A stretch of 64,000 nt of DNA from Isoetes taiwanensis (taxonomy: Eukaryota; Streptophyta; Lycopodiopsida; Isoetales; Isoetaceae): NCBI GenBank assembly GCA_021234155.1, contig JAJEKV010000136.1, positions 124,001 to 188,000 of the forward strand. Reading direction: 5' to 3'. Positions within the stretch are counted from its first letter, which is position 1. Each line of letters begins with the position of its first letter. Position numbers and translations under genes: made by a program. Below are positions 26,526 to 58,587 of the stretch, piece by piece. The notes beneath the pieces are model-generated. The model ran no database searches. It saw only the letters and a program-made list of their open reading frames with translations, and was not told the origin of the DNA.

Positions 26526-26530
26526 GCACG

Positions 26531-34290: not shown

Positions 34291-35647
34291 AACAAGGTTC
34301 ACCGGCCGCCATGACAAGTGGAGATGGAGTCCTCGGCATCCCATGTGCTTAAAAGGCAAATGGTGGTTGAGAAGAACCGCATCACAGGTCTGGAGACCCG
34401 CACGCTGCATGTGGAAGATGGCCTTGGCCTGGCACACTTCGAGCGGCAACAAAGCCGTGCAGGAGGTCGCCGACATGCGGGCCGCCCCAGACTCGTGGTT
34501 CATCACTCACGGACACCATGGCACAGAAAGGGAGCGCAAGAATCAGGAGAGACGATGGTCACGGTGTCACCGAACCCCGGTCGGAGGTGGGCGGCCACCA
34601 CCACCATAGTACGCGAGCCTTGGAGGCGCTCTTGCGGACTGACCCGGAACCAACCGGGATCTTGAGTAAGATCCCGGAACAGCAAGCCCGACCCTCGGCG
34701 CGTGTCTTTGGGGGCTCCGAGCGCTCGCTACTTCGAGCCTCGAGCTCCGGGGTTCGCGGGCAACCATCCATAAACCCGAGCGGGGTCTCCCACCGAGGGT
34801 TCATAGTCCGTGCGGCCGGTCGGCGGGGGAGATGGCCAAGCAGCGGCCGAGGCCCTGCGAGAGGCTGTGCTCCGACTTCCACCGGGGTAGAGGCGGCTTC
34901 AGGCCGCTACCCGCCATAGCCTCCACGGCCGGCACCCGAGGCCCCGCCTGGCGCCCCGCCTCCAACCACTCCCATGCCATCCCGGCCACCACCACCACCC
35001 CGGCCCACCGGGACCCGGTCCCTCGCCCACCTTTGACCCGGGCAGAGAACTCGGTAACCCTTGGCGGAGAGGCCCAATCTGGTAGTTGAGGCATGCGAGC
35101 AGGGGGAGAGTCCTCGCCCACAACATCCAGAACATGCATTCTCGATCGGATGACATTCGAGGCCAGTTCACATTTCTCGAGCAGCGTCCGTCATGGGGCT
35201 CGGCCCGGTCGTGGCCGTATTGTCATATTCCGCGGTTGCGGATGCAGTGGTGTGCGTGATGCCATATTGCGCCAGGCCCAGATGCTGAAGGGGACATCCC
35301 ACAGACGTGGACCGGGACCTCACACCCGCAGGCGGGAGAGGAGGAGCAGACAGAGCTTGTCGCGGTCGTGAGGTATTCGCCAAGCGGGGGGTGCCAGGAG
35401 ATTGGTTCGGAGGCGGGATGCACATTCCAGAAACTGACTCTGCTGCGGACCCGGCCCCACCCTTGGCCCAAAGTGGCCCACGCTTCCCCTACCACGGCCC
35501 CTTCTCACTGCTCCTACTCTCGCTCCCTCCGCGACCGTGCCCTCGACCACATCTTTGCCTCGCTCCATCTACTTCTCCACTTTCGGCCCCGCTTCGAGTC
35601 CTCCCGCTGACTCGGCGATACCATCCCTCACGACAAATAGGAATTGT

Positions 35648-38600
35648 GCCTCGGGTGGTCTCATGGAATTGTCGAGGCTTCCCTTGGCGAGAAGGGGCGG
35701 TCCCGAACTCCGTGGCGGCCGATATGGATCTCATCTTTCTCATGGAACATGGGAGCATCTTGGTTTGAGCTACCCGACCGGGTTACCAACATTTCGGTCT
35801 TCAATACATGCAGGACGGAGGGTCATGGTGGAGTGGCTTGCTACTACCGGACAACCTTGGCACATTCGGTTACCCTCGAGGAAGATGCGGACACAACCGG
35901 GTACTTGTGGGTCCGTGTGCATAATACCGGTGGCAACCCTCTTTTTTCGGCCGCTTTGTTATTTCCCTCGCGAGAGAGCACCTTCTATCGCAGCCACCCG
36001 ATCGCGGGACGGGATGGACCCTTATGTCGATCTATATGATGACATACAGCAGCACCAGCAGTTGGGTAGGGTCGTCCTTCTTGGAGATTTCAATGCACGG
36101 ACAGGAGTAGAGCAGCCCATGCGACTTGACCCCCTCGCTGACGATGTCCTGCGGCTTCGCCCCTGAAGAAACCCGGCCCACGAGGATCGGATGACAGCCG
36201 TGTCACTCAGCACTTTGGACGGTTGCTCCTGCTATGTGGTATTTTTGACTTGATAATTTGCAATGGCCTGTCACAGGGCCCGATTCTCGCAAGTGCACAT
36301 GCAGACAGGACAATCAGGGGGGAGGGTCCAGTGTGGTGGACTATGTGCTTGTAGTTGCCCAAGATATGCATCTCATCGGCCATTTCCGGGGTGGGTATGC
36401 GATAGCGGGATGAGGAGGTCGACTTCGGATCACCTCCCACTTTATTTGGACCTGGTTTGGCAAGCGCGGACCCCCCCCACTACCCAGCCCCTCGCCGTCC
36501 TCAGTTGAGACTAGATTATGAGCAGGCAGAGAACTATGCCGAGGTCCTTATGGACGCCCTCCCAGTAATTGCGGGACCTCCACCGGAGGCGTGATGCCTA
36601 GACCCGGTGACCGCTATTACGGGATGCGGCGGACAGGTGCTGGCGGGCCAGCGTCGCCACCGCGGTGGTCAGCAACATTCTGGCAGAATAGATGGTTTGA
36701 TGCGAGTGTAAAGAACATAAGCGGCGGCTCCATCACATTCGGATCCGGTGCCCGCTTGCGGGCCACCATACGCATGCGCCTATCCGAAAGGAGACAAAGG
36801 CGCGGTATCTTGCCGAGCATCGAGGGGAGATGTTCGCCCTGTTGGACACTCATCCTCGAACCTTTTGGCGCGAGTGCTTGAAGGCCCGCCCGGCCCTCTG
36901 GGGACATCACACCCGGCGGTGGGAACAGGTACTTGCGGCGGCTCTATGACCCGCCCGGGGACGATGCGCCCATACCCCTGGGGATGGCCCCCATTGGTTC
37001 TCGTGGAGGAGGATATTGAGGAGGGCCCGCAACGGCCGGCTAATGGGAAGGCGGTGACCTCGATGGTATGCAGGCCGAAGTTACTCAAATGGGGAGGGGC
37101 AGCCGCTTGTCTGCCGGTCCTCACTACCCTATTCAACGAGCATTGCGGGAAGGTCTCCCCGGACAATGGACCACAAGCGGGGTTGTTCCCATTCACAAGG
37201 CTGGGCGACCCACACCGTCCCGCCAACTACCGGACGATCATGGTCGATTCAAGATTTGCCAAACTGTTGGCTAGCATTCTCGAAAGCAGGTTGACATGCT
37301 GGGCGGAGGCCACAGATGTGCGGGCCCTCACAAAGGCGGGCTTTAGACCCCGCCACTCAACGATTGACCATATCTTTACACCGCTGGGGCGATTGAAGAC
37401 AGTCGGAATCATCGGCAGGACTTGTATTCTTTGCTTTGTGGACTTCGCGAAGGCTTTTGATAATGGTTCCCGAGAAAAAGCCGTGGGCTAGGATGCGTCA
37501 ACTGGGGCTCCTGCCCGTGCGTAATGCCATATACTGAGTTGTATGAGAGTTGTTTTGGCGGGATGCACCGACGGGCCAAGCATTCACCAGTAGTACGGTC
37601 CGGGCCGGGGTTGCCCCCCTCTCGCCAACACTTTTGGCCTCTACATTGATCGTTAGAGCCCCGGCCATCGAGCATGGGGATGGCATACGACTTTTGCACC
37701 AGGTCATCCGCCACTCATCTATGCGGGACGATGTTGGCCTGCTGGCCCACACCCGAAGCTATGCGGTCTCACTTGGATGCCCTAGACACATTTTTGTCGC
37801 TACGACATGCTGGCGTGAATCGGGCCAAGACCGGGGTGGTTCTCATATCCTCTTAGCGTCACCCCATGCCTCCTGCACTCACATATCGGGGGGCAGCTGT
37901 GGGACGCCACGCCCACCTACAAGTACCTAGGGGTGGAGTTCCCCTCCTCGCTCTGGCTTTGGGGAGGCGTCTATCCGCTATGGTGAAAGTAGCCGAAAAG
38001 CTTTATGCCATGCGAGAACAACATCCACCGCGAGCTCTATGATTGGGGCCATCAGTCACATCTGTTAGCACCGGGTCGAGCCTGTCCTTCATGCGGGGGT
38101 CGAGGTTTTGGGGCCCGGCCGTCTCTATGGCGACCTGGAATGACTTGGAGCAGTGCGAAGGCATTTTGGCACGGGCACTTGGGGTGAAACCTTGAGTCCC
38201 CTATCGGTCTCGCTGAGAAAGCTGGATTCTTGCCGCTTCCGGGGCAGCCCTTGATAGACACATCGTCTATTTTGAAAGTAGTTACTATGGGTGATGCTCG
38301 GCTCCCGCTACCTGGCTTACACGCGGGCAATGGGTCCGGCGGCTTAGGGCCTGTTGGAGGGTAAGAGGCATCGGTGGTTCGCCCGGATGGAGCGTCGCGA
38401 GAACACAGGATGCATGCGAGGTGGACCACAAATGCCCGATCGTGGCGGCCTGCGGGGAGTACCTAGGCGCTTGTTTCCTTGGCAAGCTTTGGGACCCGGC
38501 GGCTCTAGAGCAGGTCAAAGCGGCCCATTACAAGGAGCACATCAACCCGTGTTAGCCGGGGCCCACGGCTCTACTGCGTTCCCGGCTGCCTACGAAAAGC

Positions 38601-38920
38601 GCGGGCTCATTGCCTCCATTCGCATTGAGGTGCCCACCATCTTCGCGAGAGATCGAGGCGAGGCGGGTGGATTGGGGAGCCCCGCCGGATGGGCTCTGTC
38701 AAGTCTTTGTCAGCGGGTGCCATTGAGGATGAGTCTCACACTTTCGAGTTGCCCGGCGTTGATCACATCCGAGGCGGATCACGCTCCCTTAGTATGCGGC
38801 GGACTTGCCCTTACATCTGGCGATGAACACACCGTCGATGACGTGCCACGGGGTCGTACATTCGGGAGGAATCTTGGACTGCGAGGTCACCTTTGCCCCC
38901 TTTGGGCGCTTTCGTTGATT
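35648..38920 (+). pseudogene. LINE copy 2 ORF2: endonuclease, reverse transcriptase, Cys/His C terminus
   Basis: Endonuclease landmarks are VVSWNCRGFPW near 35655, RVVLLGDFNARTG near 36070 and SDHLPLYLDL near 36425; the GDFN and SDH motifs are catalytic in this family. RT landmarks are QAGFRPRHSTIDHIF near 37330 and LCFVDFAKAFD near 37430 (motif A). The YADD site at 37720-37733 reads TATGCGGGACGAT, the same one-base excess as in copy 1. The C-terminal part matches copy 3. Frameshifts throughout make it dead. Confidence 0.8.
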
Positions 38921-38924
38921 GGGC

Positions 38925-39155
38925 ACTACGGGTGTGGTGCATGACTGTATATATTTGGGTGTTTCTGCATTGTATATGTTAGCACAGTTTGTCAACAGGC
39001 TGATTGCTGCCACGGTTTTTCCCTCGAAAACCCTTCGGGGCGGGGGTTTTTTAATCCGGGCAGTAATCCGCTTGCTGCGTTTTTGTATTGGGTCCCATAG
39101 ACCGATTGGTCTCCGTGGACGATAAAAGTACCTTCCTTCCTTCCTTCCTTCCTTG
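38925..39155 (+). repeat. LINE copy 2 3' UTR with hairpin and CTTC tail
   Basis: Nearly identical to 17683-17912 over its last 170 bp: TTTTTCCCTCGAAAACCC, the G-rich block, AGACC-GATT-GGTCT, GTGGACGATAAAA, then CTTCC units. Both sides fit one retroposition template. Confidence 0.8.
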
Positions 39156-41580: not shown

Positions 41581-42768
41581 GATTTTGTGACATTTCAGGT
41601 ATCTATACGGGATACGTATGCATACCATAACACGTCACCGGTACATAGTGGGCCTAAGGGCCCAAGTGGGGGTTTGCCTATAATGGATTTTATTAGCCAT
41701 GCTAATAAAACCAAAGGATAATTATGGATTATAATGGCATAATTAACCTAATTAAGCCATTATGGTCTAATTAACTAATTGTGACCAATGAGGGGGTGCC
41801 ACCTGGCCCAAATCGATTGGCCAGGAAGGACTTATCATTTTGGGGCAAGGAATAGGGGTCCTACCCCCCAATTCATCCCAAATTCAAATTGGGAGTGAAG
41901 AGGAGCAGCAGCCAGCAGCTTATACATGTTTTGCCAACACTTACCCCCCCAGCCTCGAACTATAGATGCCTACCGTGACCATGGCTCTAGCCAAGACACT
42001 GGTTAGTCGTTAGATAGCTTCTATTCTGCTGAGACTTCTTTGAATAGATGGAATGATTAAATTCTCTTTTGTAAGTTGTTCGGGTAGCATTAGAGATGTC
42101 TCTAGCTAGATCCCCTAATACCCAATAAATGCGGCCTGTGCACAAGAGCCTACCTGGTTGTGGATACTATGATGTGGTTCAGCACCAGATAACGAGTATG
42201 AGGGTGAATCGGGGGTGGGGTCTTGCCTAGCGCGGCCACAGGACTCCTATAGTGTGCTAGGCTTATAGCCGGTCACTGTGTGTGCCGGGTATGGGTCTGA
42301 CACTCTCTAGGCCAGAGGGCGTGAGTCTTTATGGCCGTCCTGGGCTCAAATGGGCTAGTGAGCTAGCCGTTAGATTTAGGGGAGTAAGTCGGGTACGGAT
42401 GCGGGGGTCACGAGGGGGCACGTGTTCTCTAGCACACCCAGGGATCCGTCATAATCGGGGAGGAGACAATTCTCTGACCTGCCTCATCGGACCGGGGAGA
42501 TGTAACCCGGAGTAGTCCCGAAGGAAGGAAGGAAGGAAGGAAGGAAGGAAGGAAGGTATTTTTATCGTCCACGGAGACCAATCAATCTATGGGACCCAAT
42601 ACAAAAGCGCAGCAAGCGGATTACTACCCGGATTAAAAAACCCCTGCCCCGAAGGGTTTTCGAGGGAAAAACCGTGGCAGCAATCAGCCTGCTGACAAAC
42701 TGTTCCAATACACGAAATGCAAAAACACACAAATATATACACTCATGTACCGTACCCATAGTGCCTGA

Positions 42769-43557
42769 TCAGCGAGCCGCCAGGGGGGGGCAAAGGTGGG
42801 CTCGCAGATCCAGTATCTCCTGAATGTACGACCCCAGAGCACGTACTGACAGTGTGTTCATCAGCAAATGTAGGGGCAAGTCCGGCCGTACTAAGGGAAC
42901 GTATCTGGCCCGGATCTGACTGAATGCTGGGCAACTCTGGAAAGTGTGAGACTCATCCTCAATGGCACCCGTTTGACAGCACTGACAGAGCCTGTCCTGG
43001 CGGGGCTCTCCAATCCACCTGCCTGTCTCAATGCGGAGATGGTGGGCACCTGTGCGAATGGAGGCAATGAGTCTGCGCTTTTTCAGGGGCAGCTGGGAAC
43101 GCAGGTAGAGCTGAGGGGCCCGGGCCAACGCGGGGTTGAAGTGCTCCTTGTAATGGGCCGTTTTGACCTGCTCTAGAGCGACGGGGTCCCAGAGCTTGCC
43201 AAGAAAGCAAGCGTCCAGGTATTCCCGCAGGCTGTCATGATCGACCTCTGTGTCCACCTGCACGCATCTGTGCTCCTGCACGTTCCATCTGGCGAACCAC
43301 TGATCTCTCTTACCCCTCCAACAGGCCCTGAGCCGCTGCGGGCCCATTGCCACAGCGTAAGCCAGGTGTGGGAGCCGAGCATCACCTATATTAACCACTT
43401 TCTGAAAATAGATGATGTGTCTATCAAGGGCTACCCGCTGAAGCGGCAAGAATCCAGTTTCCTGCAGCAGAATCTGATAGGGGACTGAATGTTTCACCCC
43501 AAGTGCCCGTGCCAAGAATGCCTTCTGCACCTGCTCCAAGTCATTCCAGGTCGCCAA
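42769..43557 (-). pseudogene. LINE copy 3 ORF2 C terminus, open for 262 residues
   Basis: Uninterrupted frame from MATWNDLEQVQKAFLARALG to a stop at 42769. Near residues 190-215 it has LCQCCQTGAIEDESHTFQSC, a Cys-Cys...His...Cys cluster like the zinc-binding end of L1-clade ORF2 proteins. The homologous regions of copies 1, 2 and 4 carry the same cluster or flanks. It is only the end of ORF2, so it has no start of its own. Upstream frames to 44521 hold a broken RT, including QAGFRP near 44345. Confidence 0.8.
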
Positions 43558-44521
43558 AGAGACGACCGGGCCCTAAACCTCGACCCCGTACAAAAGGACA
43601 GGCTCGACCAGCGCCCAAACAGATGTGACTGATGGCCCCAATCATAGAGCTCTGCCTGGTGACTGTTGTTCTGCATGGCATAAAGCGCTTTCCAGCCTGC
43701 TGTCACCTGCAAGCGGATGGACGTCTCCCAACAGAGCGAGGAGGGGAACTCCACCCCTAGGTACTTGTAGGTGGGCGTGACCTCCACAGGCTGTCCTCGA
43801 TATGTGAGTGCAGGAGGCGTGGGGTGGCATGAAGAGGATATGAGAACCACCCTGGTCTTGGCCAGATTCACGCGCATGTCTGTAGCCTGGCAGAATGTGT
43901 CTAGGGCATCCAGATGAGACTGCATAGCTTCCGGGTGTGGGCGGAAGGTCAACATCGCCCGCGATAGATGAGTGGGCGGATGACCCGTGCAAAAGTCGTA
44001 TGCCATCCCCCCATGCTCAATAAGCCGTGGCTCTGGCGGTCAATGTAAAGGCCAAAAGTGTTGGTGAGAGGGGGCAGCCCCCGCCGACGCCGATACTACC
44101 GGGTGAATGCTTGGCACGCCGGCCGCGATCCCGCCAAAACAACTCTCATACGTACTGTGTATGGCATTCGCGCGACAGCAGCGGGCAGCCCCAGATTGAC
44201 GCAGATCTATCCCATAGCTTTTCCGGGGACCGTGATCGAAAAGCCTTCGCGAAGTCCACAAAGCAGCAATACAAGTCCGCCGATGGTTTCTACTGTCTTC
44301 AATCGCCCGCAGTAAAGATATGGTCAACCGTTGAGTGGCGGGTCTAAAGCCCGCTTGTGTGAGGGCTCGCGACATCCGCCGCCCGCCTTGTGGGTCAATC
44401 GGCCGCGACAAGAATGTCGCCCAACAGATTTGGCAAATCTTCGAAATGACCATGATCGTCCGGTAATTGGCCGGACAGTGTGGGTCGCCCGCCTTGTGAA
44501 TGGGGACAACCCTGCTTGTGG
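43558..44521 (-). pseudogene. LINE copy 3 broken reverse transcriptase segment
   Basis: Frames at 44453-44040 and 44006-43494 carry RT-domain pieces: ALTQAGFRP near 44350, YESCFGG near 44150, then MAYDFCTGHPPTHLSRAMLT and TDMRVNLAKTRVVLISSS. The YADD site near 43955 is altered (TATCGCGGGCGAT). Several frame changes make it non-functional. Confidence 0.7.
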
Positions 44522-45041
44522 TCCTTGGGATTGCATCTCCGGAGGGCTACAAGCACGTCATAGCATGATTCAGCCTATCTGCAAAGTGGCACAGGAGGGG
44601 CGGATGAAGTGGACAACCCTAGCCATTGTCGTATGCCAGCCAACGCCAGGTCATACTTCCGTCTGTTGATATCTTGAGGCCCTGGCCATCAGTTGATCCC
44701 TTGGAGTCTGGGCCGGGGGTAGAGCCTTGTCATGGTGTTATTTCATGTTATTAGGAATGTATTATCTTTTCTGTGATGATGATGGATGGGCCACCCTTCG
44801 TGGTGGTATATTATTTTGCATGATGATTGTATGCTAACGTGTATGTATGCTTCCGCTGTATAGGATTTCCCATTGAGGACGTGGGACGAATGACACCTCC
44901 GTGTTCCTCGCCCGAACACTTGGCCAGCCCAAATGGTCTGAGTATGACGGAGGGCCTTGCCGTGGTGATGTAGTTGCCATGGGAGGGGAATTCCCGTATT
45001 TATATGATGGGAGCATCGTATAGATTATGGGAGCGTCACAG

Positions 45042-45056
45042 TGGTATCATGAGAGC
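45042..45056 (+). other. Primer-binding site, Met-tRNA-like
   Basis: TGGTATCATGAGAGC starts one base after the left LTR. TGGTATCA matches the 3' end complement of plant Met tRNA, the usual primer for Ty3/gypsy reverse transcription. The rest departs from the common TGGTATCAGAGC form. Confidence 0.75.
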
Positions 45057-45715
45057 ATGATTTTGGTGGACCAAAATTATTGCACTGGCCATAGCCGAAC
45101 TCGTTAGTTGACGGTACTTTCTCCTAGGTTAGAGCATTCCAACTCCGTAGTTAGCATGTAAGTTGGCCTAGTTATGGGAGGAATGACCTAAATTGTGGAG
45201 GGAAGTGTTCTCTAGTGGAGTGGCTAAGGTCAGAAAGTGGAGCCAGAGGTTCGAGTTTTGTAATCGCCATGACTTTCTCCATGTAGCTCGGATCGACGAG
45301 ATTTTTGTTCCAACGCGTCGGGCATGGTCCAAATACCCTAGGGGAATCCTCATACGGTAGCAACAGGTCGAAAGAGGGGCTCGAAATCCAACTCGGGCGC
45401 CGCTCACGTTTCGACGCCTCAGAATTCCAGTAGAAACACGTATAATGTGACCGGCGCCCGACTGTATATTTGCGCGTATTTTCGCCGTATAAAAATAAAT
45501 TTTTTTTTTTTTTAAAAAAAGGAAAGTTTCAAAAAAAATTTGAATTAAAAAGTAGAGAGACGTTTCTTTTCGCCCACGGCCTCTCCCCGCCTACCCTAAC
45601 CGCCCGCCATAGCCACCGGAACCCGAGCTTGCAACCCCGCCTTTGCTTGCGCCCTCGCCATCTCCAACCCTTAGCGCCTCACTTCCTTCCTTTCTCCCAG
45701 TCAGCGCCTTCGTCC

Positions 45716-46822
45716 ATGGCCCATACCAAAGGTACTTTGAGCCCCGCCAACCTCACAATACCTCGTATCTACGCCCTGCTTGGGGAGCAGCTGGCCACCG
45801 ACTCTGATATGGTTGAGCTCCTTTTAAACGAGTTGGTGCAACGTTTCAGCGATGGCCTGAGGATACCCTACCCCATATTCCACCTCTCCGAACATTTTCT
45901 TATCAAGCTTAACCTCCAAAAGCAGGCGTATACCATGGTTGAGCAACCTGACAAGGTTATGGTACTGGTTAAGTTCTACCCATCTGAGTGCGAGGAATAT
46001 TCAGAAGAGGAGGGCATTCGGAGAGAGGCTGCCTGCATCAGGGCACTGGCCCGGGAAGATGACACCCAGGAGATAGAGAGAGGAGACACCGCGGCTAGAG
46101 TCCGTGAGTACGTCTACCTAGGTGATGGGAGAGCCATCTTCAATTGTGAACCTTTCGAACTTCCCCCATATGAGTGGAATGAGGCTACCCAGAGCTTCAC
46201 GTGGGATGAGATCCTAGGACATGTCAGCCTGGATTACCTGATAATGGTCCAGCTGGATATGCGAATCCGGCCAGGCCGCTACCACCAAGAGCTGCTCCGA
46301 AGGGTCGCTGCCCGACGGTTTGCCCAGATAGAAGCCATGGCAGCAGCCCATGAGGCCCGGGAACAGGCAGAAAGGGCCCAACAAGAGCAACAGCAAAAGG
46401 AGTAGCAGGAGCAGCAACAGAACCTGGACCAGCAGCAGCAGCCCAACACAGAGCAAGAGACCCAGCGTGAGCCCGATCAAGCGGACAAGCCACCCGTTAA
46501 GAGACGGCGGAAATCCACAGCTCACAAGTCCGGCAGCCAATATAAAGAAAAGCTAAAGGTTGTCGGGAACATAGGGAAGCACGCAAGCTCAAGTCGCCGG
46601 CAGGAACGAATGGACGCCGCACGGCCCCACCCAGCTTCCGGGGGCAAGACTCTGCCCAAGAAGCCTGCCCCAACTCAGAGGGCGGCTACCTCAAGGAAGC
46701 CCCACCGCTTCAAACCGGGCACCGTGGCTTTACGGGAAATCCGTAAATACCTGAAGACCACGGAGCTGCTACTGACCAAGGACTTAGCTCTTGCCCGGAG
46801 AATCCGGGGAGATCATCTTTAG
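45716..46822 (+). CDS. Extra ORF A: unknown N-terminal domain plus truncated histone H3-like C terminus
   Basis: One frame runs from ATG 45716 to TAG 46820-46822, 368 codons, broken only by an in-frame TAG at 46403-46405 (codon 230, context AAGGAGTAGCAGGAG). Residues 1-205 are a folded-looking, unrecognised region. About 205-250 is a Gln/Glu-rich helix, and 255-300 is Lys/Arg-rich (VKRRRKS could be a nuclear signal). From residue 308, SGGK matches H3 11-14. [20 protein letters not shown] and KTTELL match H3 36-61, covering the whole alpha-N helix with Lys56 kept. LARRIRG matches the H3 C terminus (126-132). H3 residues about 65-122, the histone fold, are absent, so it cannot pair with H4 normally. 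The frame matches the upstream domain, which argues for fusion. Alternatives: read-through, or a recent CAG-to-TAG mutation. Confidence 0.85.
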
Positions 46823-47066
46823 CGGGTCTTCGGACATATCCCTTGTAACAATTTTGTAAAAATCAATATTAATCTAAGTTTTGTCTACTGTGTCTCTGTT
46901 ACAAAATAATTATTAGTAATAAATAAATAATTTTTAATAATTATTTAAAATAGGGATGCTGACGTCAGCACTAAAGTAAAAAGGATATTTAAACATTTTT
47001 AGGGCTTCATTCCTTGTTTCTTACCCCTCGGTTCACCCTCCTCCTCCTCCATTCCTTCCAGCGCCA

Positions 47067-47945
47067 ATGGCCACCGTCGACCTACTTGAATGGTACCAAG
47101 ATGGAGAACAATGGGACCTTCAAGTTCCTTTTGACCTCCTACAGCCTTACCTACTCCAGCGGATAGATCTCATATCCAACATGCAGAGTCACCCTGACTA
47201 TGCTGGATTTTTGGAGTTCTACACCGAGGAGATGCTTCCGCTTTGCATCCCTTTGGGAGAACCCCCACAGCTTTACATCGAGCGAGCTGTAGTGAGGGAG
47301 ATGCTTGGGGGAGACAACCCACGCCTACGACGTGCTTAAGAGCAAACTCCGGTGGGGCCGTAACCCACCCGTCGTTATGCATGAGGGGCAACAATATCTT
47401 GAAGTCGCCTTTGCTTTGGCCATTCTCATGGACCAGTACGTCGAGGATGATACCCTGCCAGCAGAGAAAGGCAAGGTTCCCGAATCTTCAGATGAGGAGG
47501 AGGATGAGCATATAGACATGGACGACTTCGTTCGGTGGAAGCAGTTGGCCGAGGAGATGCCGCCACACCGGGAGCGAGGGGCACGCTTGTCCGGATTGGA
47601 TGCCCTTCCCGTTGTTTATCACCAAGGTCAGGAGTTTCTTCTCTTGGATGATATCCTCTGGACGTATCGCATAGTGGTCGGGTTCAAGCGTCGAGACAAA
47701 GCGCAAGTGCTCAGTCCGCGTCCTCACGTATGTGCTGGTGCGTCGCCCTCACCGCCTTGAGGCAAGATATTGCACCCTGGATGAGTATGAAGCTCCTCAC
47801 GGCAGCCCCATTAGCTGCCGCCTATCCTCCAGAGGTTGCTTCTCTTGCGGCCACCACGGTCGACCCAGGGGTCACCTTGTTACATCATCGGCCGCCACCA
47901 CCACCTCCTACATCAATGGGCCAGGATGCGGGGCCTAGCTCCTAG
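47067..47945 (+). pseudogene. Extra ORF B: uncharacterised, with frame changes
   Basis: ATG at 47067 opens MATVDLLEWYQDGEQWDLQV; the frame shifts near 47310 and again near 47720. Joined by homology-free reading order, it is an acidic protein of about 290 residues with an acidic patch (SSDEEEDEHIDMDD near 47486-47525) and a Cys/His-rich end (CRLSSRGCFSCGHHGRPRGH, about 47815-47875) that may bind zinc but is not the usual CCHC spacing. Context CCAATGG is a fair start. No known family. It sits in the gypsy leader between ORF A and ORF C. Confidence 0.5.
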
Positions 47946-48106
47946 CTAGATGTAAAAGGCATTATAAAGTATGGCCTTTGGCCACTCAAAAATATGTAAT
48001 ATTGCATTGATATTTCATGCACTTTTTGAATACAAGCAATTGTTTTTTTCCTACCATACTTGTCTCTCTCTTTCTAGAGTTTGAAGTATAAGGAATAATT
48101 CATTTA

Positions 48107-48526
48107 TTGTATATCTATTCTTGCCTTCTTACAGAAGAAGAAGAGGAAGAGGAAGAGGAAGAGGAAGAGGAAGAGGAAGAGGAAGAGGAAGAGGAAGAGG
48201 AAGAAGAGGAATCAGAAGAAGAGGGGGAGCCATACGACCCCATCAAGGGCTTCGAAATAGTTAACATCCTTCGCGACCATGCTTTTGAACATTTACAGCG
48301 TACACTTCGTCGAACTTGGTCGTATTGGGATTGTACTACGCAAGAAGCTTTCGATGATGCTAATGATCATCTTTGGCAGATATATTATGCACTCCGAGAT
48401 CTCTTTAATCTTCTAATCATCAGTCCTACCCTGGAATTCCAATACGTTATAATCCAAGCTTGGGCTAGGTACAAAATGGTCCGAGCAGTAAGGGAGAGCA
48501 GTAAGGGAGCAGTAAGAGAGCAGTAA
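48107..48526 (+). CDS. Extra ORF C: poly-glutamate acidic protein
   Basis: The frame carries about 30 consecutive Glu codons (GAAGAGGAAGAG repeats, 48135-48205), then SEEEGEPYDPIKGFEIVNIL, a helical region with aromatic residues, and a stop at 48526. A strong 3' splice-site-like sequence (CTTGCCTTCTTACAG) ends at 48134, just before the Glu run, so this may be an exon joined to ORF B. Acidic tracts occur in histone chaperones, but also arise from simple GAGGAA microsatellite growth. Function unknown. Confidence 0.5.
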   Translation: MYIYSCLLTEEEEEEEEEEEEEEEEEEEEEEEEEESEEEGEPYDPIKGFEIVNILRDHAFEHLQRTLRRTWSYWDCTTQEAFDDANDHLWQIYYALRDLFNLLIISPTLEFQYVIIQAWARYKMVRAVRESSKGAVREQ

Positions 48527-48904
48527 GGAAGAGTATTAAGACAATCACTGAAACACTGACTAGAACCAGCAAATGTGAATCAGAACAAAAATTGCATCTT
48601 ATCCTTGTGACCAAAGTATAGAAAATTGTAGGACCGCCATGCTCTGCCATGCCCTCTGGGTCAATAAATCAAAGAACAATTCCTATATCCCTTCACGCAG
48701 CCCTAAGCTAGTTGTTTAAGGTTCCCCTTGTCTAGATGCAACTTTAGTTTTTTTTTTATGTGAAGCCAAAAGTCTTTTTGTAACCGTGGTTTTTATCTTA
48801 ATAATAAAAGTGTTTCTCTTGTCACATTCTTGTTATAACTAATAAAGTTAGTATGCTTATCTTGGATTTGTTTCTATTTAGATGGTGCACACCCTTCCCC
48901 TTGA

Positions 48905-50035
48905 GTGACACCCGTGCAACCGGGCCGTCTTACCCTGGAGCAAGAGCTCACTATTATGAAGCGTCAGCTTACTGAGCTCCAAGATTACGTACTGCAACAA
49001 TTCACCTCAAATGCCACAGGAGTATGGACCAGAGATTCCTGCTCCACAGAACCCGCAGCAGCCGCCACCCGCACCTGTATCTGTGCCTGCCACAACAAGT
49101 CGATCTAAGAGGACACGCCCTAGTTCTTCCGTAGATCCTACCTCGGAGTCTTCTGACTCCACTGACTCCTCTGAGGATGAGGCCGACCATATGAAGACCA
49201 ACAAAAAGGACTATCAGAAAACAGTGGATTCGGCTATCACGAGCATTTGGAAGAACCGAAAGCTTGGACAATTCTCAGGGAAAACCAGGAATGGAGTGGA
49301 TGCGGAATCATGGTTGGATGAAATGCAGGAGTTTGGAAAGTCATACGGAATGACTGACAAGGATACCGGCAAAGTTGCCACCACCAACCTTACAGGTTCA
49401 GCACGGATCTGGTGGAAAGGATATGCCCGCTCTCATGGGCCCATGAGGGGAAGGTGCACTATAAGGTCTTTGCTAAAGCTTTCAAGCCACATTATGTGCC
49501 CAGGGCCCATCGTTGCCAACAAATCCAGACCTTCTACCGCCAGGAGCAGAAAAACATGACCGTGCAATCTTATACGGACGAGTTCATGCGCTTACGCTTA
49601 TACGTCCCAGGGATAAATGAGCGTAGGGCAGTTGAAGGGTATATTGAGGGCTTATCCCCTACCATAAGGAAAATGGTTCGAGCCATAGACCCTAAGACCG
49701 TTGCAGAAGCAGAGGCTAAGGCACTTAGCCTAGAAGAAGACACCCCGAAGTACCAGCCGCCACGACCCTCTTTGTTCACTCAGAACAAGGGGTATACACC
49801 TTACAGAGGGCGCTCGCCTAGTCCAGGGCCTTCTGCCTCTACTGGATATCAGAAGGCTGAGAAGAAAGTTTCCTTCACCGTGCCAGAGAAGTCTACCAAC
49901 ACTGCAAGAGCTTTCAGAGATATCTTCCAAGCTATCCCTAGGGAGACCCGTGAACAGCTACGCAGGGAGAAGGCTTGTTATCGGTGTTTCCGCCCGGGCC
50001 ACCGTATGCAAGAATGATGTCACACAGACAATGCA
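48905..50035 (+). pseudogene. Gypsy gag with CCHC zinc knuckle, frame-broken
   Basis: The parts are LTLEQELTIMKRQLTELQ (coiled coil, from 48930), a Ser/Asp-rich linker near 49110-49190, the capsid region (WKNRKLGQFSGKTRNGVDAE near 49249, then YRQEQKNMTVQSYTDEFMRL near 49535), and the knuckle CYRCFRPGHRMQE plus Cys near 49975-50020. Frames change near 49010 and 49430, and a TGA falls just before the last knuckle Cys. An acceptor-like CTATTTAG at 48873-48880 lies upstream, as if gag were made from spliced RNA. Gag packages element RNA; this copy cannot make it intact. Confidence 0.8.
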
Positions 50036-50194
50036 GGTTGCCTTGGCTGAGCTGGATTGGGAGGACGCATGGGACCCAAACCATCTGGACAACACTGGAG
50101 GATGACGCGCCTGACATAATGGGTGAGTCTCACATCTATGCTGCCATTGAAACGGTCAAGCCAACCACCAGACCTCTGTCATTTCTACGGTTGG

Positions 50195-50820
50195 TCAAGT
50201 AGGTTGTAAACCTTTCATCATTCTTATGGGCACTGGTAGTACTCATAACTTTGCATCTCCTAGAATGGCGGAAGCCTTACAGATCACCCCTTTGAGGTCT
50301 AAGCCACGTCCAGTTACATTGGCAAGTGGGGCCATACGCCACACCGTAGGCGTCGTATCAATTTGAATATTCAATTGCCAGGAGCACCGGTTGCTCTAGG
50401 AGCGGAAATAATGGATATTGGCCGCTACGATCTCATTGTGGAAATGAAATTCTTGGCCGCTGCCAAAGCCAACATTGATTGTGAGAAACGGGAGGTCACC
50501 TTCAATGCAGCCAATGGAGCCCGAGTTACTATAGCAGGTAAGCCAGTTAACCCTATTATGCAATGTATCTCCTTACGCCAATTGCATAGGGCTCTCAGGA
50601 AATCACAGATCACGGGCATGATTCAACTTGCTTCAGTGGAAGCTAAGTCCAAACATGATGAAGTCCTTGATGCTTTGCCTCCCGCAATAGCCGTGGTTCT
50701 TCGGGAATACCATGATCTTTTTCCCAATGAAATCCATCGGCTCCCACCTTTCAGAGGGGTGGAATGTGAAACTACCTTGAACCAGGCACCAAGCCTACCA
50801 GTAAGGCCCCGTATCGGATG
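50195..50820 (+). pseudogene. Gypsy protease and linker, catalytic Asp lost
   Basis: The active-site region near 50215-50250 reads FIILMGTGSTHNF. Ty3/gypsy proteases have DTGS here, so the catalytic Asp appears replaced by Gly (GGC where GAC is expected). After a frame change near 50360, MNIQLPGAPVALGAEIMDIG continues the C-terminal half of the domain and the linker to RT (VLREYHDLFP, HRLPPFRGVE). Confidence 0.75.
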
Positions 50821-52010
50821 AGCATTCCTGAATTGACTGAGCTTAAGAAGCAGTTGCAGGAACTCCTCAAATTAGGCTTCATTAGGCCTAGTGTTTCACC
50901 TTTTGGAGCCCCGATAAGGATGGCACCCTGAGAATGTGCATCGATTACCGCCAGCTAAACAAGCATACTATCAAGAATCGGTATGCTTTGCCGCGGGCAG
51001 ATGACCTTATGGATCAGTTGCAAGGGGCTAAGTATTTTACGAAGATTGATCTTCGGTCAGGGTATCACAAGATAAGGATTAAGGAGGATGACATCCATAA
51101 GTCCGCTTTCCGGACCCGTTATGGGCATTACGAGTTCACGGTGATGCCATTTGGCCTGACCAACGCTCCGGCCACCTTCATGAGGCTGATGAATGATGTC
51201 TTCCGCAAGTATCTTGACGATATTGTCATTATATTCTTTGATGATATCCTTATTTACAGTAAGACATTAGAGGATCATGAACGGCATTTTCGGTTGGCCT
51301 TACAATTATATGTCAAGTTCTCTAAGTGTCGCTTTGCCACCACCAACGTTGATTACCTGGGACATATTGTGTCCACAGAGGGAATAGCCACCGACCCCGC
51401 TAAAATTGAAGCAGTCAAGGAATGGCCCAATGTGTCTGAGGCCCGCAGCTTTCTTGGCTTGGCGGGTTATTACCGTAAATTTGTCAAGGACTTTGCCAAG
51501 CTCGCCGCACCTTTAACTGACCTGACCAAGCATGATAAGGTTAGGGATTGGATGGCACATTGGAAAGACAAGGTACAGGTCGAATTCCAAGCATTAAAGG
51601 ATGCTTTGACAACAGCTCGTGTTCTTACAATGCCATATCCTCAAAAAGACAAGTGGGTTGCCACAGATGCTAGTAAAATCGCTACAGGGGGAGTCTTAAT
51701 GCAAGAAGGTCGGGTTATCCCTTATGATTCTCGAAAGATGAATGACGCTGAGCAGCGATACCCCACGCATGACTAAGAGTTGCTCGCCGTTTGTGCGTGC
51801 TTTGCGCATTTGACGACATTACTTACTTGAAAGGCGATTCCAGTTAGATACTGATCATCAAAGCCTCCAATACATCTTCACGCAACCCCATCTCAATTTG
51901 AGACAAAGACGGTGGATGGAATTCCTTGAGGAATATGATTTTGAGGTCATTTATAAACCCAGCAAGTATAATGTTATTGCCGATGCCCTTTCTAGACATC
52001 CATTCGTCAC
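50821..52010 (+). pseudogene. Gypsy reverse transcriptase and RNase H
   Basis: RT motifs in order: [13 protein letters not shown] near 50875, a short loss at the VLFVKK position, [20 protein letters not shown] near 50932, [15 protein letters not shown] near 51040, [20 protein letters not shown] near 51135 and FFDDILIYS near 51235 (the catalytic pair is intact). RNase H follows with [15 protein letters not shown] near 51655 and IYKPSKYNVIADALSRHP near 51950. A TAA after RYPTHD at 51775 and frame changes near 51790-51880 break the polyprotein. Confidence 0.88.
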
Positions 52011-52229
52011 TAGAACGCATTGTAATGCTATCTCCACACTCTCCAGTGGATTTGGGAAGCAGATCCAACAGGCCCTTCCCACGGATCCAGAATTCCGAGA
52101 GGTATGGCAAAGTGTATCTACGGAAGCCAGAACGGATAAGGAGAGAGAGACTTTCCGCCATTATAAGAAGGAAGCTGAACTCCTTTATTACAAGGACAAG
52201 TTATGTGTTCCTGAGACATCTGGAGTCCG

Positions 52230-53577
52230 TAAGCTTTCTCCATGACACACATAACAGTCCGATAGCAGGACATGCAGGATTTATGAAGGCATATTTCAAA
52301 ATCCGCTCCGGCTATTTCTGGCCAGGAATGAAGAAGCACATTGCCAGGTACATTAAGCAATGCCAGACCTGTCAACAAACAAAGGCAGAACAGTTGCGTG
52401 TTCCAGGGTAATTACAATCCCTCGACATCCCCAATGCAAAATGGGAAGCTATTACCATGGATTTTATCGTGGAGCTTCCGCGCACATTAAGAGGGTTTGA
52501 CGCCTTAATGGTGGTGGTCGACAAACTTTCGAAGATGGCACATTTCCTGCCATGTCGAACCACAGACACTGCATTGGATACCGCCTTGCTCTTCACAAAG
52601 GAGGTATTTCGTCTGCATGGGATGCCCCGTACGATTATATCAGATCGGGATCCTAAGTTTGTTAGTGCATTCTGGAAAGATTTCTTCAGCACTATTCAAA
52701 CTAAGCTTGCCATGAGCACAGCTTATCACCCGCAGACAGATTGTCAAACGGAGCGTACCAATCGTATAATTGAGGATATGCTACGTAACTATGTCTGGAA
52801 CAAACAGTTGCAATGGGCAGACTACATTCATTTGGTGGAATTTGCCTGCAACAGTACTAGACAGGAGTCCTCAAGGATGTCTCCTTTCATGATTAATTAC
52901 GGCTATCAATGCCTCACACCAGACACGTGGCATAACCCAGTATCAAAGGTGGAGGTTTCTCAGCAATTGCTTACAGATATGCAAGCACTAGTCGAAGAAG
53001 TTCGAGCCTACTTGATAGCCGCCAGAGCTCGACAAAAGAGTCTAGCAGATCGACACCGTACTCCCCGCGAGTTTCAGGTCGGTGAGTCCGTCTGGCTAAA
53101 GATTAAGGTGAAGCAAGCCAAACTTAAGATTGGCAACTGTAAGAAGCTTGCACCTAGATGGGCGGGACCATTTTCTATAACCGAAAGGATAGGTTCACAG
53201 GCCTACCGGTTGGATCTACCCGCACATTTTTAGATCCATAAAGTTTTCCATGTAAGTCTTCTCAAGAAGCATCATCCGGATCCAAAGGAGATTCTTGACA
53301 CATCGACACTTCTAAAGATGACTGAGGATCAGTTGGAGATTGTGCCAGAAGCTCTCCTTGATCATGCATATAAGCAAACCCGTCGAACTCAAATTTTGCA
53401 ATACTTGGTCAAGTGGAAACACTTACCCACAGAGACGCAGCTTGGGTTCTTAAAGTGGATTTGGATAAGACTTACCCGTACTTCATGAAGTCATGCCAGG
53501 GCCGAACCATTCAAGATGCAATCATCTCCAATCCGGATGGTAAGCATAGAGTTCTTTTAGTGCGACAGGGGTCATAA
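52230..53577 (+). pseudogene. Gypsy integrase with C-terminal chromodomain
   Basis: HHCC zinc part: SPIAGHAGFM and QCQTCQQTK near 52260-52380. Catalytic triad: Asp in ITMDFIVELP (52455), Asp in IISDRDPKF (52635) and Glu in QTERTNR (52742), so DDE is complete. GPFSITERIGSQAYRL marks the GPY/F region. The chromodomain is at about 53340-53480: PEALLDHAYKQTRRTQILQY, LVKWKHLP. A +1 change near 53440 precedes WVLKVDLDKTYPYF and the end at 53577. Stops at 52409 and 53231 and this shift inactivate it. In chromoviruses the chromodomain steers integration toward heterochromatin. Confidence 0.88.
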
Positions 53578-53963
53578 GAGTGAGATCCAGCAGGAATCAT
53601 TGTAGGGGTTGGGTTACATGCATCTTAGATGGGGAATTGGGCATATAAGCATTCATGATAGGACACATTCGTCTACGGCTATTATGGGAATATTGCCACT
53701 CCTTACGCTGAGACGACACGAAAGCCTTAGGCATGATAGGGCCTCTGCATTCATATTTTCATTTATTTAAGGGGGTGGTCCCATATAACTGCCAACTTGT
53801 GTTTTGAGATAAAATTGTGTTTGAAATCTACTTTTGAATGTAATTTCCTATTGTTTTGTTGAAAACATGACTTCTTGTCCTGCTACCTCCATATGTCACC
53901 CTTTGACGTTTTCAATAAATTAAAGTTATCTCTACCATAATTACTCTCCACTAACTCTAATCC
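53578..53963 (+). other. Gypsy 3' internal untranslated region
   Basis: Lies between the end of pol and the polypurine tract. No reading frame or motif of note. Confidence 0.5.
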
Positions 53964-53987
53964 AGGGGGGGGGGGGGGGAGGGAGAA
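53964..53987 (+). other. Polypurine tract
   Basis: A run of 15 G followed by AGGGAGAA, directly before the right LTR. Such tracts prime plus-strand synthesis. The G-run may be miscounted in an assembly. Confidence 0.85.
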
Positions 53988-55542
53988 TGTGACATTCCAG
54001 GTATCTATACGGGATACGTATGCATACCATGACACGTCACCAGTACATAGTGGGCCTAAGGGCCCAAGTGGGGGTTTGCCTATAATGGATTTTATTAGCT
54101 ATGCTAATAAAACCAAAGGATAATTATGGATTATAATGGCATAATTAACCTAATTAAGCCATTATGGTCGAATTAACTAATTGTGACCAATGAGGGGGTG
54201 CCACCTGGCCCAAATCGATTGGCCAGGAGGGACTTACCATTTTTGGGGCAAGGAATAGGGGTCCTACCCCCCAATTCATCCCAAATTCGAATTGGGAGTG
54301 AAGAGGAGCAGCAGCCAGCAGCTTATACCTGTTTTGCCAACACCCCCTCCCCCCCCAAGCCTCAAACTATGGATGCCTACCGTGACCATGGCTCTAGCCA
54401 AGACACTGGTTAGTCGTTAGATAGCTTCTATTCTGCTGACACTTCTTTGAATAGATGGAATGATTAAACTCTCTTTTGTAAGTTGTTCGGAATACTTGAA
54501 TGGTGTTTATATTAGTTCTTTTTGCTTCTTCCGTGTATTTGAAATTAAGGGAAGGGTAGAGACCTAAAAGCCTCTTAGCATTAGAGATGTCTCTAGCTAG
54601 ATCCCTTAGTACCCAATAAATGCGGCATGTGCACAAGAGCCTACCTGGCTGTGGATGCTATGATGTGGTTCAGCACCAGATAACGAGTATGAGGGTGAAT
54701 CGGGGGTGGGGTCTTGCCTAGCGCGGCTACAGGACTCCTACAGTGTGCTAGGCTTATAGCCGGTCACTGTTTGTGGGCCGTGTATGGGTCTGACACTCTC
54801 TGGACCGGAGGGCGTGAGTCTTTATGGTCGTCCTGGGCTCGAACGGGCTAATGAGCTAGCCTTTAGATTTAGAGGAGTAAGTCGGGTATGGATGCGGGGT
54901 CACTGAGGGGGCACGTATTCTCTAGCACACCCAGGGATCCGTCATACTCGGGGAGGAGACACTTCTCTGACCTGCCTCATCGGACCGGGGAGATGTAACC
55001 TGGAGTAGTCCCGAAGGGTGATTCCTTGGGATTGCATCTCCGGAGGGCTACAAGCACGTCATAGCATGATTCAGCCTATCTGCAAAGTGTGCACAGGAGG
55101 GGCAGATGGAGTGGACAACCCTAGCCATTGTCTTATGCTAGCCAAAGCCAGGTCATACTTCCGTCTGTTGATATCTTGAGGCCCTGGCCGTCAGTTGATC
55201 CCTTGGAGTCTGAGCCCAGGGTAGAGCCTTGTCATGGTGTTATTTCATGTTATTAGGAATGTATTATCTTTTATGTGATGATGATGGATGGGCCACCCTT
55301 CGTGGTGGTATATTATTTTGTATGATGATTGTATGCTAATGTGTATGTATGCTTCTGCTGTATAGGATTTCCCATAGAGAACGTGGGACGAATGACACCT
55401 CCGTGTTCCTCGCCCGGAAACTTGGCCATCCCAAGTGGTCCGAGTATGACGGAGGGCCTTGCCATGGTGATGTAGTTGCCATGGGAGGGGAATTCCCGTA
55501 TTTATACGATGGGAGCATCGTATAGATTCTGGGAGCATCACA
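53988..55542 (+). repeat. Right LTR
   Basis: 1555 bp, TGTGACATTCCAGG to GGGAGCATCACA, flanked by GATTT. It has about 100 bp near 54490-54590 absent from the left copy, and serves as the empty site for LINE copy 3. Confidence 0.93.
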
Positions 55543-55547
55543 GATTT

Positions 55548-55963
55548 ACAGCCATCCCTCAATCCGTCGCCACAGGCACAAAGAGGAGGGATATCTGAGA
55601 TTTTTGTTCTGCTTTTTGCTTTGTCTATTTCTCGTTACCTCTTTTTCTTCTTCTTTTTCTTTTAGTTATTTTCCTCTTGTTCGTGTCTATTATTACATCC
55701 CTTATTTATTCTTAAATTTTTTTCCCAAAAAAAAAAAAATTGATAAAAAAAAACATTTGCAAACGTTATTGCTTTGGGGTCACATGCATTGCCTTCCCAA
55801 ATATACAGGCCCTTATCACCTTCTTTATATATACCCATTATATCTATGTCCTATTTCCCTTCCACCACCACCGCTTCAAGGTTAGTATTACATGGGTTCA
55901 TCGTTGTGTACGGGCGAAGCTCGATCTTTAAGTTGTCAATCTTTCTTTTGACGAGCTTTGTAA
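55548..55963. other. Leader-like sequence before a gag fragment
   Basis: Pyrimidine-rich and AT-rich. A donor-like AAG|GTTAGT at about 55879 and an acceptor-like TGTAAAATTGCAG ending near 55972 could define a small intron ahead of the gag-like frame. No coding content is clear before that. Confidence 0.35.
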
Positions 55964-55973
55964 AATTGCAGAG

Positions 55974-56411
55974 AAAGTAGAAGAGGAAGGTCTGACCCTC
56001 TCGGAAGCCATTAATGCTCAACTTGGCTTCAAGGTATCTATGAAAACGGCGAGTGGCTTTTGGGAGAAACCAATGGGGTCTGCTCCAGGGCTTGGGCCAT
56101 TCAAATGGTCACATGCAGACGTTGTAGATAATGAACCTATTGGGGCCAAAGAGCCAAAGGAATCTTATCAAGCATGCAAGAAGCGGTTAATGCGGGAGAA
56201 TAATTGTTTTGTTTGTTATTCAACTGACCATAAGTTTTATGAATGTCCTACTTATCTTGAAAAGAAAAAAGGGGACAGAAAACAAACTACGCCTATTCTT
56301 AAGTCTGGAACTAAGAAAGAGGACAAAAGTAAGAAAGTAGCTTCTGTTCGAGGCGATGGAAAAGGGAAAAAGATGGTCACTGTCCAGGAGAAATCGGACG
56401 GATTCTGTTGA
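55974..56411 (+). pseudogene. Gag-like fragment with CCHC knuckle
   Basis: An open frame of about 145 codons: EEEGLTLSEAINAQLGFKVS near the start, then KRLMRENNCFVCYSTDHKFY with ECP. The spacing C-X2-C-X4-H-X4-C is a retroviral-type zinc knuckle, here the C-terminal part of a gag. A Lys-rich tail ends at a TGA. No protease or RT follows in this orientation. It may be a truncated element or a gag-derived gene exon given the possible intron upstream; I favour a truncated element. Confidence 0.55.
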
Positions 56412-56510
56412 GAATAATAGTCTCTTACGCTTTTGGGCTACTATTCAAAATAAAAAAAATACACATCCTATTCGATCCGGGTAGTGAGTTTGATGAACTA
56501 AAATTAACTT

Positions 56511-56936
56511 CTATTCCTCAACTGATATAGAATTATCGAACTCGCAAAGAGAAATCTTCGAGATACGAAACTGAGGGCATAAAGAAGCCTCTACAAAAGT
56601 AGGAGCAGGAACATGAGCAGGAACATGAACGTGAGCAGGAGTAACTAGAACATGAACTGGAACATGAACTGGATCAAGAACTGGATCAAGAACTAGAGCA
56701 GGAATAGGGACTGGAGCAAGAACTGGATCAGGAGCAGAAAGCGGAACTGGAGCAGGAGCAGAAACTGGAGTTGAGACAAGAGTCGAATTAGAACACGAAA
56801 CAGAAACAGGGACAGCAAAGACGGAATCAGGGGCCCACGATACTGCACGGATCGAAGTCAATGTTGGTGTAGAGACCTGATCTGCAAATGAACTGGAACT
56901 AGCCGGTAAATCGAAATGATCTAGTACGACAATCAA
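56511..56936 (-). pseudogene. Pro/Val-repeat linker of the partial retroelement
   Basis: The frame reads repeats such as APVPLSAPDPVLAPVPIPAL and DPVHVPVHVLV, produced by a degenerate 12-bp DNA repeat (GAACTGGAGCAG on the plus strand). It overlaps the end of the protease frame in another phase, so a frame change lies between them. Probably a disordered spacer after the protease. Confidence 0.5.
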
Positions 56937-57237
56937 TCTGTGGGTTATGTAGCTCGAGCCAGGGCAGACCCAAGACTATTGGCGCATGAGGGCTAGCAAT
57001 GAGATTGAAGGAAATACTACAAGAAACTCCCTCGAACAAAACCTGAAGAGGCGCAGTACATTCTGTGACTGCACCCAAGGAGATATCCCGTCCATCAATC
57101 ACTTTGACAGAACCAGGATGCTCAACCTTGCTTCTAGGGATGGCGTGCTTACTGGCGAACGCACTATCCATAAAGCAAGCATTTGCACCACAATCAAGTT
57201 GCGCCAACACTTGCAATCCTCCAACTTCTGATTTCAA
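56899..57237 (-). pseudogene. Retropepsin-like aspartic protease domain
   Basis: It reads VLAQLDCGANACFMDSAFA, where D-C-G-A takes the place of the usual D-S/T-G-A active site, and ends VLGLPWLELHNPQIDCRTRS, the hydrophobic I/V-LG-PWL motif that closes retropepsin domains of gypsy elements. One open frame of 112 residues. In an intact element it would cleave Gag-Pol. The neighbouring knuckle and gag on the same strand support the call. Confidence 0.75.
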
Positions 57238-57239
57238 TC

Positions 57240-57705
57240 ATATAGGGATGAAGAATGCCTTGCTGACCTTATCCGATGGAATAAACATGTCAAAAAATGT
57301 GGAAGGAGTCTGAAAAAAGGCGGCCAGCCGATGAGAGACTCCTACGACTCGGACCGGCCCCTAAAGTTTTCTGACTGGTTTGGACGCTTCACAGGGCATC
57401 CACGAGCAATATGGCCAGCTCCTCCACAGTAGAGGCAAAGGTTAGCCTCTCTCTGACGCTGCTTCTCGGCAGCAGATAAAGGTCCTCGAACTGCCTGATC
57501 AATCTGCATAGGCTCAAGTCCTAACCTGCTGGATTCTACTGATGATATCGGGGAGGACTAGCTATAGGCGCTTGTGTGATTGGGAAGACCTGACTACGTC
57601 TCTCTTTCCTATGTTCGAAGAGTCGTTTATCACATCGAACTGCAAATCTGATGACGTCTTCCAAAGTCTGAGGGTCCTCCATAGACAACAACATATCTTT
57701 CACAT
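57240..57705 (-). pseudogene. Gag C terminus with CCHC knuckle
   Basis: The minus strand reads MEDPQTLEDVIRFAVRCDKR near 57680, then QREANLCLYCGGAGHIARGC near 57460-57405. This is the classical C-X2-C-X4-H-X4-C knuckle. Frame changes separate it from the gag N-terminal frame and from the protease. Confidence 0.75.
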
Positions 57706-57709
57706 CCTC

Positions 57710-58147
57710 TCATAACCCCCTTTGGAAACAATCTCGAAGTGCAACATCATCCCAGGCAGTATCTACTGCAATTTGACGAAATTTTGATGCATATACTAAA
57801 GCTGGACGAGAGCCTTGCCTTAGATTGCAGAGTTTTGTGACTGTTGTGCGCTGACGATTGGTGTCTCCAAAGCATGCCTCGAGCTCTGCAGTGAAAGCAG
57901 CAAAATCTTGCAACTCTGGGGCTCCTTTCTCCAATAAAGGAGCAAACCAACTTAGAGCTAGCCCTGTGAGGAGAGAACCAATCAGCCCAACTTGTTCCTG
58001 GGCCATGGGATATCTATGAGGATGGAGCTGAATCACAAGCCATCTGATTCCAACACGTTCCTTAAGCTCTTTATTGTCCAACTGCAACTGCTGGCATACT
58101 TGAACAAGCTGCTGGACCTGCTGTAATAAATTCGAAACCTCCTCCAT
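57710..58147 (-). pseudogene. Gag N-terminal and capsid part
   Basis: The ATG at 58147 opens MEEVSNLLQQVQQLVQVCQQ (coiled coil). The capsid part follows: LIGSLLTGLALSWFAPLLEK, then FTAELEACFGDTNRQRTTVT and LRQGSRPALVYASKFRQIA. These are typical of Ty3/gypsy Gag (Retrotrans_gag). The frame ends at a TGA in QRGL-stop-EDV; a single CGA-to-TGA change would explain it. Confidence 0.8.
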
Positions 58148-58587
58148 ATATATAAAGTCACCAAATATGAGCAAAAAAATGCTTAGGATCAGAGCAGGCA
58201 AGAACCGGTAAGGGATTCCGGTTCAAACTATCATGAACCTACGCAAAAACAAGGAAAATACGTGGAGAATACGCAAGAAATACGAAAGAAATATGCCAAG
58301 ATCGGCAAAGAATCTGATATATGAACATGAATCAAGAATACAATGGCCCAAAGGCAAGCAGGAACACGAGACAGATGCCTAGAAGGCTCAAGACTGGCGT
58401 TGAACCGGAATGGTTCGACAAGAAAGGGGTGCCTTCTTATATATCTAGGCCAACGACCAAGATCGCGCCACTCTAATGGATGAGATCGCGCCAAGCGTCG
58501 CGCATGCATTTAGGTTCTAGAATATTCTAGAACCTCCTGGAGATAGTCCCACATAGGAGGAAGGCGTGAAGGAATATTTTCAACAAA

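Follow-up and report, generated by a model that had tools for sequence, protein, structure and literature searches.

Here, we describe an H3-derived coding sequence, trimmed of its central part, within an additional open reading frame of a Ty3/gypsy LTR retrotransposon in the lycophyte Isoetes taiwanensis. The element was found in a window of 64,000 nucleotides (assembly GCA_021234155.1, contig JAJEKV010000136.1, positions 124,001 to 188,000, forward strand), and all coordinates given below are positions in this window unless another locus is named. The H3-derived piece forms the 3′ end of the first of three ORFs located between the primer-binding site and gag (ORF A, ORF B and ORF C; Table 1), and it shares the frame of the ORF A sequence upstream of it.

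The H3-derived sequence in ORF A

The codons at 46694-46819 correspond to H3 residues 36-61 joined directly to residues 120-135, with 31 of 42 residues identical. The best phmmer match among PDB chains was to an H3 (E 3.9e-12), which bears out the original prediction of an H3 fragment fused in frame into an extra ORF. The αN region (22/26) and the C terminus (9/16) are both kept in H3 order, also as predicted, and when each half was scored separately against H3, none of 5000 shuffles reached the observed value (0/5000 for either half). A tblastn search with H3 against the whole window identified a single place, 46634-46807 (E 4.3e-13), a second match being at chance level only (E 8). The Pfam Histone profile scored the piece at 21.6 bits (E 2.8e-4) against a curated cut-off of 26.4, and the profile search proposed as a check thus gave a strong result with phmmer and one below cut-off with Pfam. 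The latter score would fit a chance resemblance from which H3 homology is absent, but this reading is vanishingly improbable considering the order of the halves, and it is ruled out by the phmmer E-value together with the shuffles.

The histone fold between αN and α3, H3 residues 62-119, is absent from the piece, which is therefore H3-derived without being a histone. The loss of the fold had been recognized from the outset, with bounds at 65-122 that the best alignment moves to 62-119. The letters SGGK, initially taken for the end of the H3 tail, are present, but the sequence upstream of RKPHRF resembles the H3 N-terminal tail at the level of shuffled sequence, since the observed similarity was reached by 1598 of 5000 shuffles for 96 residues and by 1636 of 5000 for the last 37. 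That part of the prediction did not hold.

ORF A is far more open than its base composition predicts, with one internal stop against 14.1 expected (uncorrected P 8.6e-6, for a frame that was picked as open), and the remaining five frames over the same stretch hold 10 to 20 stops each. The internal stop, an in-frame TAG, separates the N part from the H3 part; the continuous 368-residue numbering used originally has the frame right but reads through it. Downstream of this TAG a glutamine-rich stretch is followed by a basic stretch and then by the H3 piece. No meaningful Pfam match was obtained with the ORF A N part or with either piece of ORF B (best E about 0.2), NCBIfam returned nothing for either part of ORF A or for the second piece of ORF B, and the ORF A N part and the second ORF B piece are not similar to each other (best E 0.30). 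A single-sequence structure model of the N part was unusable (mean pLDDT 40.5), and that of the C part, at low confidence (pLDDT 64.3), has one helix over residues 104-137, the amphipathicity of which was not significant (reached by 327 of 5000 shuffles). Within the basic stretch, RKST followed by AHK at 46508-46528 resembles H3 R8-K14; RKS[TAV] occurred in 334 of 20000 shuffles, and the resemblance was noticed post hoc.

Table 1. Features of the Ty3/gypsy element (41586-55542) and of the H3-derived piece that it carries
Feature	Position	Strand	Basis or remark
Target-site duplication GATTT, left copy	41581..41585	.	Read from sequence
5′ LTR, starts TGTGACATT, ends CACA	41586..45040	+	Direct repeats, blastn
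LINE-type fragment inside 5′ LTR, ~2 kb	~42523-44521	-	Interrupts LTR
Primer-binding-site-like TGGTATCA	45042..45049	+	One base past 5′ LTR; read from sequence
ORF A, additional ORF, 368 codons, in-frame TAG 46403-46405	45716..46822	+	N part without known family
Basic stretch containing RKST	46490..46528	+	By eye
H3 36-61 (αN region), 22/26 identical; I51, R52, Y54 kept	46694..46771	+	Alignment
H3 120-135 (α3 and C terminus), 9/16 identical	46772..46819	+	Alignment
LARRIRG heptapeptide, 7/7, same as mapped NASP epitope	46790..46810	+	Sequence; epitope from PMC4838342
Stop codon at H3 stop position	46820..46822	+	Sequence
ORF B, second additional ORF, frameshifted	47067..47760	+	No meaningful Pfam match, two pieces
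ORF C, long acidic run near start (GAGGAA repeat)	48092..48526	+	ORF listing, Pfam
gag-pol, broken open stretches: Ty3_capsid/Retrotrans_gag, RVP_2, RVT_1, RNase H, rve, SH3_Tf2-1	48960..53233	+	Pfam
Chromodomain, partial, then frameshift	53237..53482	+	Pfam Chromo
3′ LTR	53988..55542	+	Direct repeats, blastn
Target-site duplication GATTT, right copy	55543..55547	.	Read from sequence

The element and its surroundings

Both LTRs begin with TGTGACATT and end in CACA. The pair aligns by blastn in three pieces that are 93.9-96.0% identical, a purine tract lies immediately 5′ of the 3′ LTR, and TGGTATCA resembles the primer site for initiator-Met-tRNA. Pfam matches in broken frames follow the Ty3 order of gag, protease, RT, RNase H and integrase. 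The chromodomain attributed to the element in the original prediction is partial and in the right place, C-terminal to integrase, but it covers profile positions 2-29 of 53 at 23.5 bits (E 5.2e-5), under the cut-off of 25.1, before a frameshift ends it. The element is a probable chromovirus. By reading, gag-pol and the chromodomain together make up nine successive open stretches separated by eight breaks, and with these and the stop in ORF A the copy is dead. Pfam matches to ORF C, with E-values down to 7.9e-4, were all below cut-off, most of them lying on the acidic run. This run is preceded by a CT-rich stretch with cag at its end, which was noted by eye as a possible mark of an intron between ORF B and ORF C. 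When six queries (the ORF A N part, the H3 part, RT, integrase, the second ORF B piece and gag) were compared with viral contigs, no relative was found.

Other repeats were observed in the window. Apparently related GC-rich LINE pieces are located at 42523-44521, 58743-59329, 16405-17295 and 34371-38944, with repeat pairs 77-98% identical, and the first of these is the piece that interrupts the 5′ LTR, where RVT_1 was weakly matched (17.7 bits, below the Pfam cut-off). To the right of the element, 55932-58222 holds the remains of other retroelements, with gag and protease on the minus strand and a zinc-knuckle-like ORF without a Pfam match on the plus strand. A long inverted repeat at 26516-27802 has its arms in nested pairs (283, 211 and 119 nt) that are 84-92% complementary.

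Age of the capture and evidence for constraint on the piece

The K2P divergence between the LTRs is 0.050 over 1457 aligned bases, and half of this distance corresponds to 3.1 changes expected in the 126 nt of the H3 piece since insertion. At least 14 nucleotide changes are needed to arrive at the observed residues from canonical H3. The Poisson probability of 14 or more changes is 5.7e-6; it rises to 5.4e-3 when this copy is made to account for the entire LTR divergence. When two changes are set aside as possibly brought in by the donor, these values become 1.1e-4 and 0.027, respectively. One of the two, R42K, was set aside since it is also found in an H3-like gene at another locus, and the other, K36R, by assumption. 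The excess of observed over expected changes suggests that the element probably carried the piece before the present insertion, an estimate of age that assumes a donor close to canonical H3.

The locus sharing R42K (L001) was the one locus returned by a similarity scan of genome contigs, and unlike the element it encodes an H3-like protein with the fold. The gene, at 516-1202 of its contig among ORFs listed over bases 500-1400, has an odd tail (SIGKSIGKSIGK). The contig is labelled as an Anaerolineaceae MAG and is probably eukaryotic and wrongly binned.

The degree of constraint was assessed by neutral simulations leading from H3 to 11 residue changes, with codon weights that are slightly wrong because they include 84 ORF B codons read one base out of frame. 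Substitutions as conservative as those observed arose in 47 of 4000 runs. The piece stayed free of stops in 2123 of the 4000 runs, and all eight key NASP residues were intact in 297, plain counting giving a chance of 0.067, which is weak as evidence. Seven of the 16 C-terminal residues are changed and none of these changes falls within LARRIRG, for which counting gives 0.003, a value that is biased because the C-terminal match was noticed through its intact LARRIRG. The αN of H3 is highly conserved in general. The same is reported for the C-terminal region (PMC4838342). The simulations provide moderate evidence, from one sequence, that the piece was under constraint between capture and insertion.

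Possible mimicry of newly made H3 and its alternatives

The two retained regions coincide with those through which H3 is bound by NASP. Bowman et al. mapped the NASP epitope on the H3 C terminus to LARRIRG, which they called necessary and sufficient, while H3 126-132 alone binds NASP less well than longer pieces (PMC4838342). Binding was abolished by L126A, A127N, I130A and G132A and much reduced by R131A, and no visible effect was reported for Q125A, R128A, R129A or E133A (PMC4838342). The element has A in place of Q125 and D in place of E133 on either side of the intact heptapeptide. The NASP homologue of A. thaliana is also reported to pull down this H3 region (PMC4838342). NASP has another site on H3, at residues 40-59, where I51, R52 and Y54 are in contact; an αN peptide alone binds at only 5.3 uM (PMC9122598). 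αN and α3 bind different places on NASP. All eight key residues, L126, A127, I130, R131, G132, I51, R52 and Y54, are present by sequence in the element. The NASP studies employed H3 or laboratory peptides (PMC9122598, PMC4838342), whereas the protein of the element is a candidate ligand. Importin-5 is reported to import monomeric H3 and to hand it over to sNASP (PMC9560165), and since this route takes monomeric H3, inability to pair with H4 would not in itself bar an H3 from using it.

Mimicry of H3 towards NASP or the H3 import machinery is the likeliest function of the piece, with a probability of roughly one in three. The proposal starts from what was observed, namely homology to H3, the shared frame, the location within the element, absence of the fold and retention of epitope residues, and from an age preceding the present insertion if the donor was canonical. 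From there we infer a capture route, expression, NASP binding and a benefit to the element. A Ty3/gypsy element may have acquired host H3 coding sequence, perhaps through a template switch of its reverse transcriptase. This sequence would have come to form the 3′ end of an extra ORF located before gag, and the codons for the histone fold would have been lost. The product would be a fold-less H3 ligand, a basic protein bearing αN and, at its C terminus, the LARRIRG helix. Such a piece could mimic newly made H3 in binding NASP and perhaps the H3 importin, and the element protein or particle might then ride the H3 import route or reach sites of H3 deposition. One may alternatively speculate that the piece works by tying up NASP. 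Several observations weigh against mimicry: the H3 piece is known from one copy, which is itself dead; what H3 conserves most strongly is also what would stay visible most easily; about half of the neutral runs are free of stops; the affinity of the αN peptide by itself is only 5.3 uM; the helix of the piece is not significantly amphipathic; and a piece of 42 residues would need to reach two separate NASP sites. The full scenario, in which an LTR family encodes a fold-less H3 made up of two NASP epitopes and exploits the importin-NASP route to enter the nucleus or to integrate close to freshly deposited chromatin, while the chromodomain on its integrase reads H3 marks, is doubtful.

About as likely as mimicry is that the family captured part of an H3 transcript and carried it along without function, its conservative differences reflecting chance and a donor H3 variant that was itself divergent. 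The single, decayed copy seen accords with such a passenger, plant LTR elements are reported to have captured host sequences in large numbers (PMC13317346), and broken histone fragments are described in Culex Helentrons (PMC4067079). About half of the neutral simulations also stayed free of stops, and a minority kept the key residues. The same simulations speak against a passenger in that so few of them matched the conservativeness of the observed substitutions, as do the openness of ORF A and the retention of the frame up to the H3 stop despite the loss of the central fold.

The piece might instead act by charge, the αN part together with an upstream KRRRK stretch serving as an NLS or a nucleic-acid chaperone without an H3-specific partner. 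The lysine/arginine-rich region from 46490 on is consistent with this, and nuclear localisation is reported for some products of additional ORFs in plant elements, antisense ones (PMC7264820). Charge alone needs neither an exact LARRIRG nor I51-R52-Y54, and similarity to the H3 tail is undetectable upstream while αN is kept at 22/26, so that this explanation appears unlikely. Least probable among the suggested functions, and by a scale to be called remote, is a decoy for chromodomains or H3-modifying enzymes. The partial chromodomain of the same element and the RKST with K at +3, like H3 8-14, would accord with a decoy, but the RKST was found after the fact and is not preceded by A7, no second ARKS-like context for K27 was seen in the 138 residues up to the end of ORF A, and similarity to the H3 tail, taken as a whole, does not exceed that of shuffled sequence, which leaves the decoy without support. 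Among the roles initially suggested for the fragment, mimicry towards a chaperone or in import fits best, because the residues kept are those mapped for NASP, and occupation of chromodomains or H3 modifiers does not.

Capture of H3 by a transposable element is not in itself new, since an H3-like gene, H3L, is carried and multiplied by a hAT transposon in Pyrenophora tritici-repentis (PMC3538342). That system is a DNA transposon in which H3L has a globular domain and is found in the reference genome as 26 very similar genes with ESTs, a few of them truncated by frameshifts; any function of H3L was left open by its authors (PMC3538342). The Isoetes element is by contrast an LTR element seen in one copy, with the fold deleted and the remainder fused into a longer ORF. 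Histone gene fragments are also contained in Helentron-Cq-32A of Culex, which differs in being a rolling-circle element with H4 and H15 fragments that carry a premature stop, a frameshift and indels, in eight copies (PMC4067079). In Phalaenopsis, Ty3/gypsy elements likewise have an extra ORF with a domain acquired from the host, there an AlkB-type m6A demethylase that is active in vitro and is represented by 38 consensus sequences in one species and 23 in another; histone is not among the domains named in the available part of that paper (PMC9289625). The original claim that no LTR element of this kind had been described is uncontradicted by a literature search that covered few subscription papers, the matches listed including no LTR element with an H3 piece, but an H3-like gene is known from a DNA transposon (PMC3538342). 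Within the limits of this search, no LTR element with a fold-less H3 was met before, and the present one appears to be a new form of host-gene capture.

If the full scenario were true, the element would address H3 both before and after its deposition. Should other copies be found to keep the piece under selection, it would constitute a naturally occurring H3 reduced to the epitopes bound by its chaperone, showing which parts of H3 its supply chain needs, and it would represent a new way for a retroelement into the nucleus.
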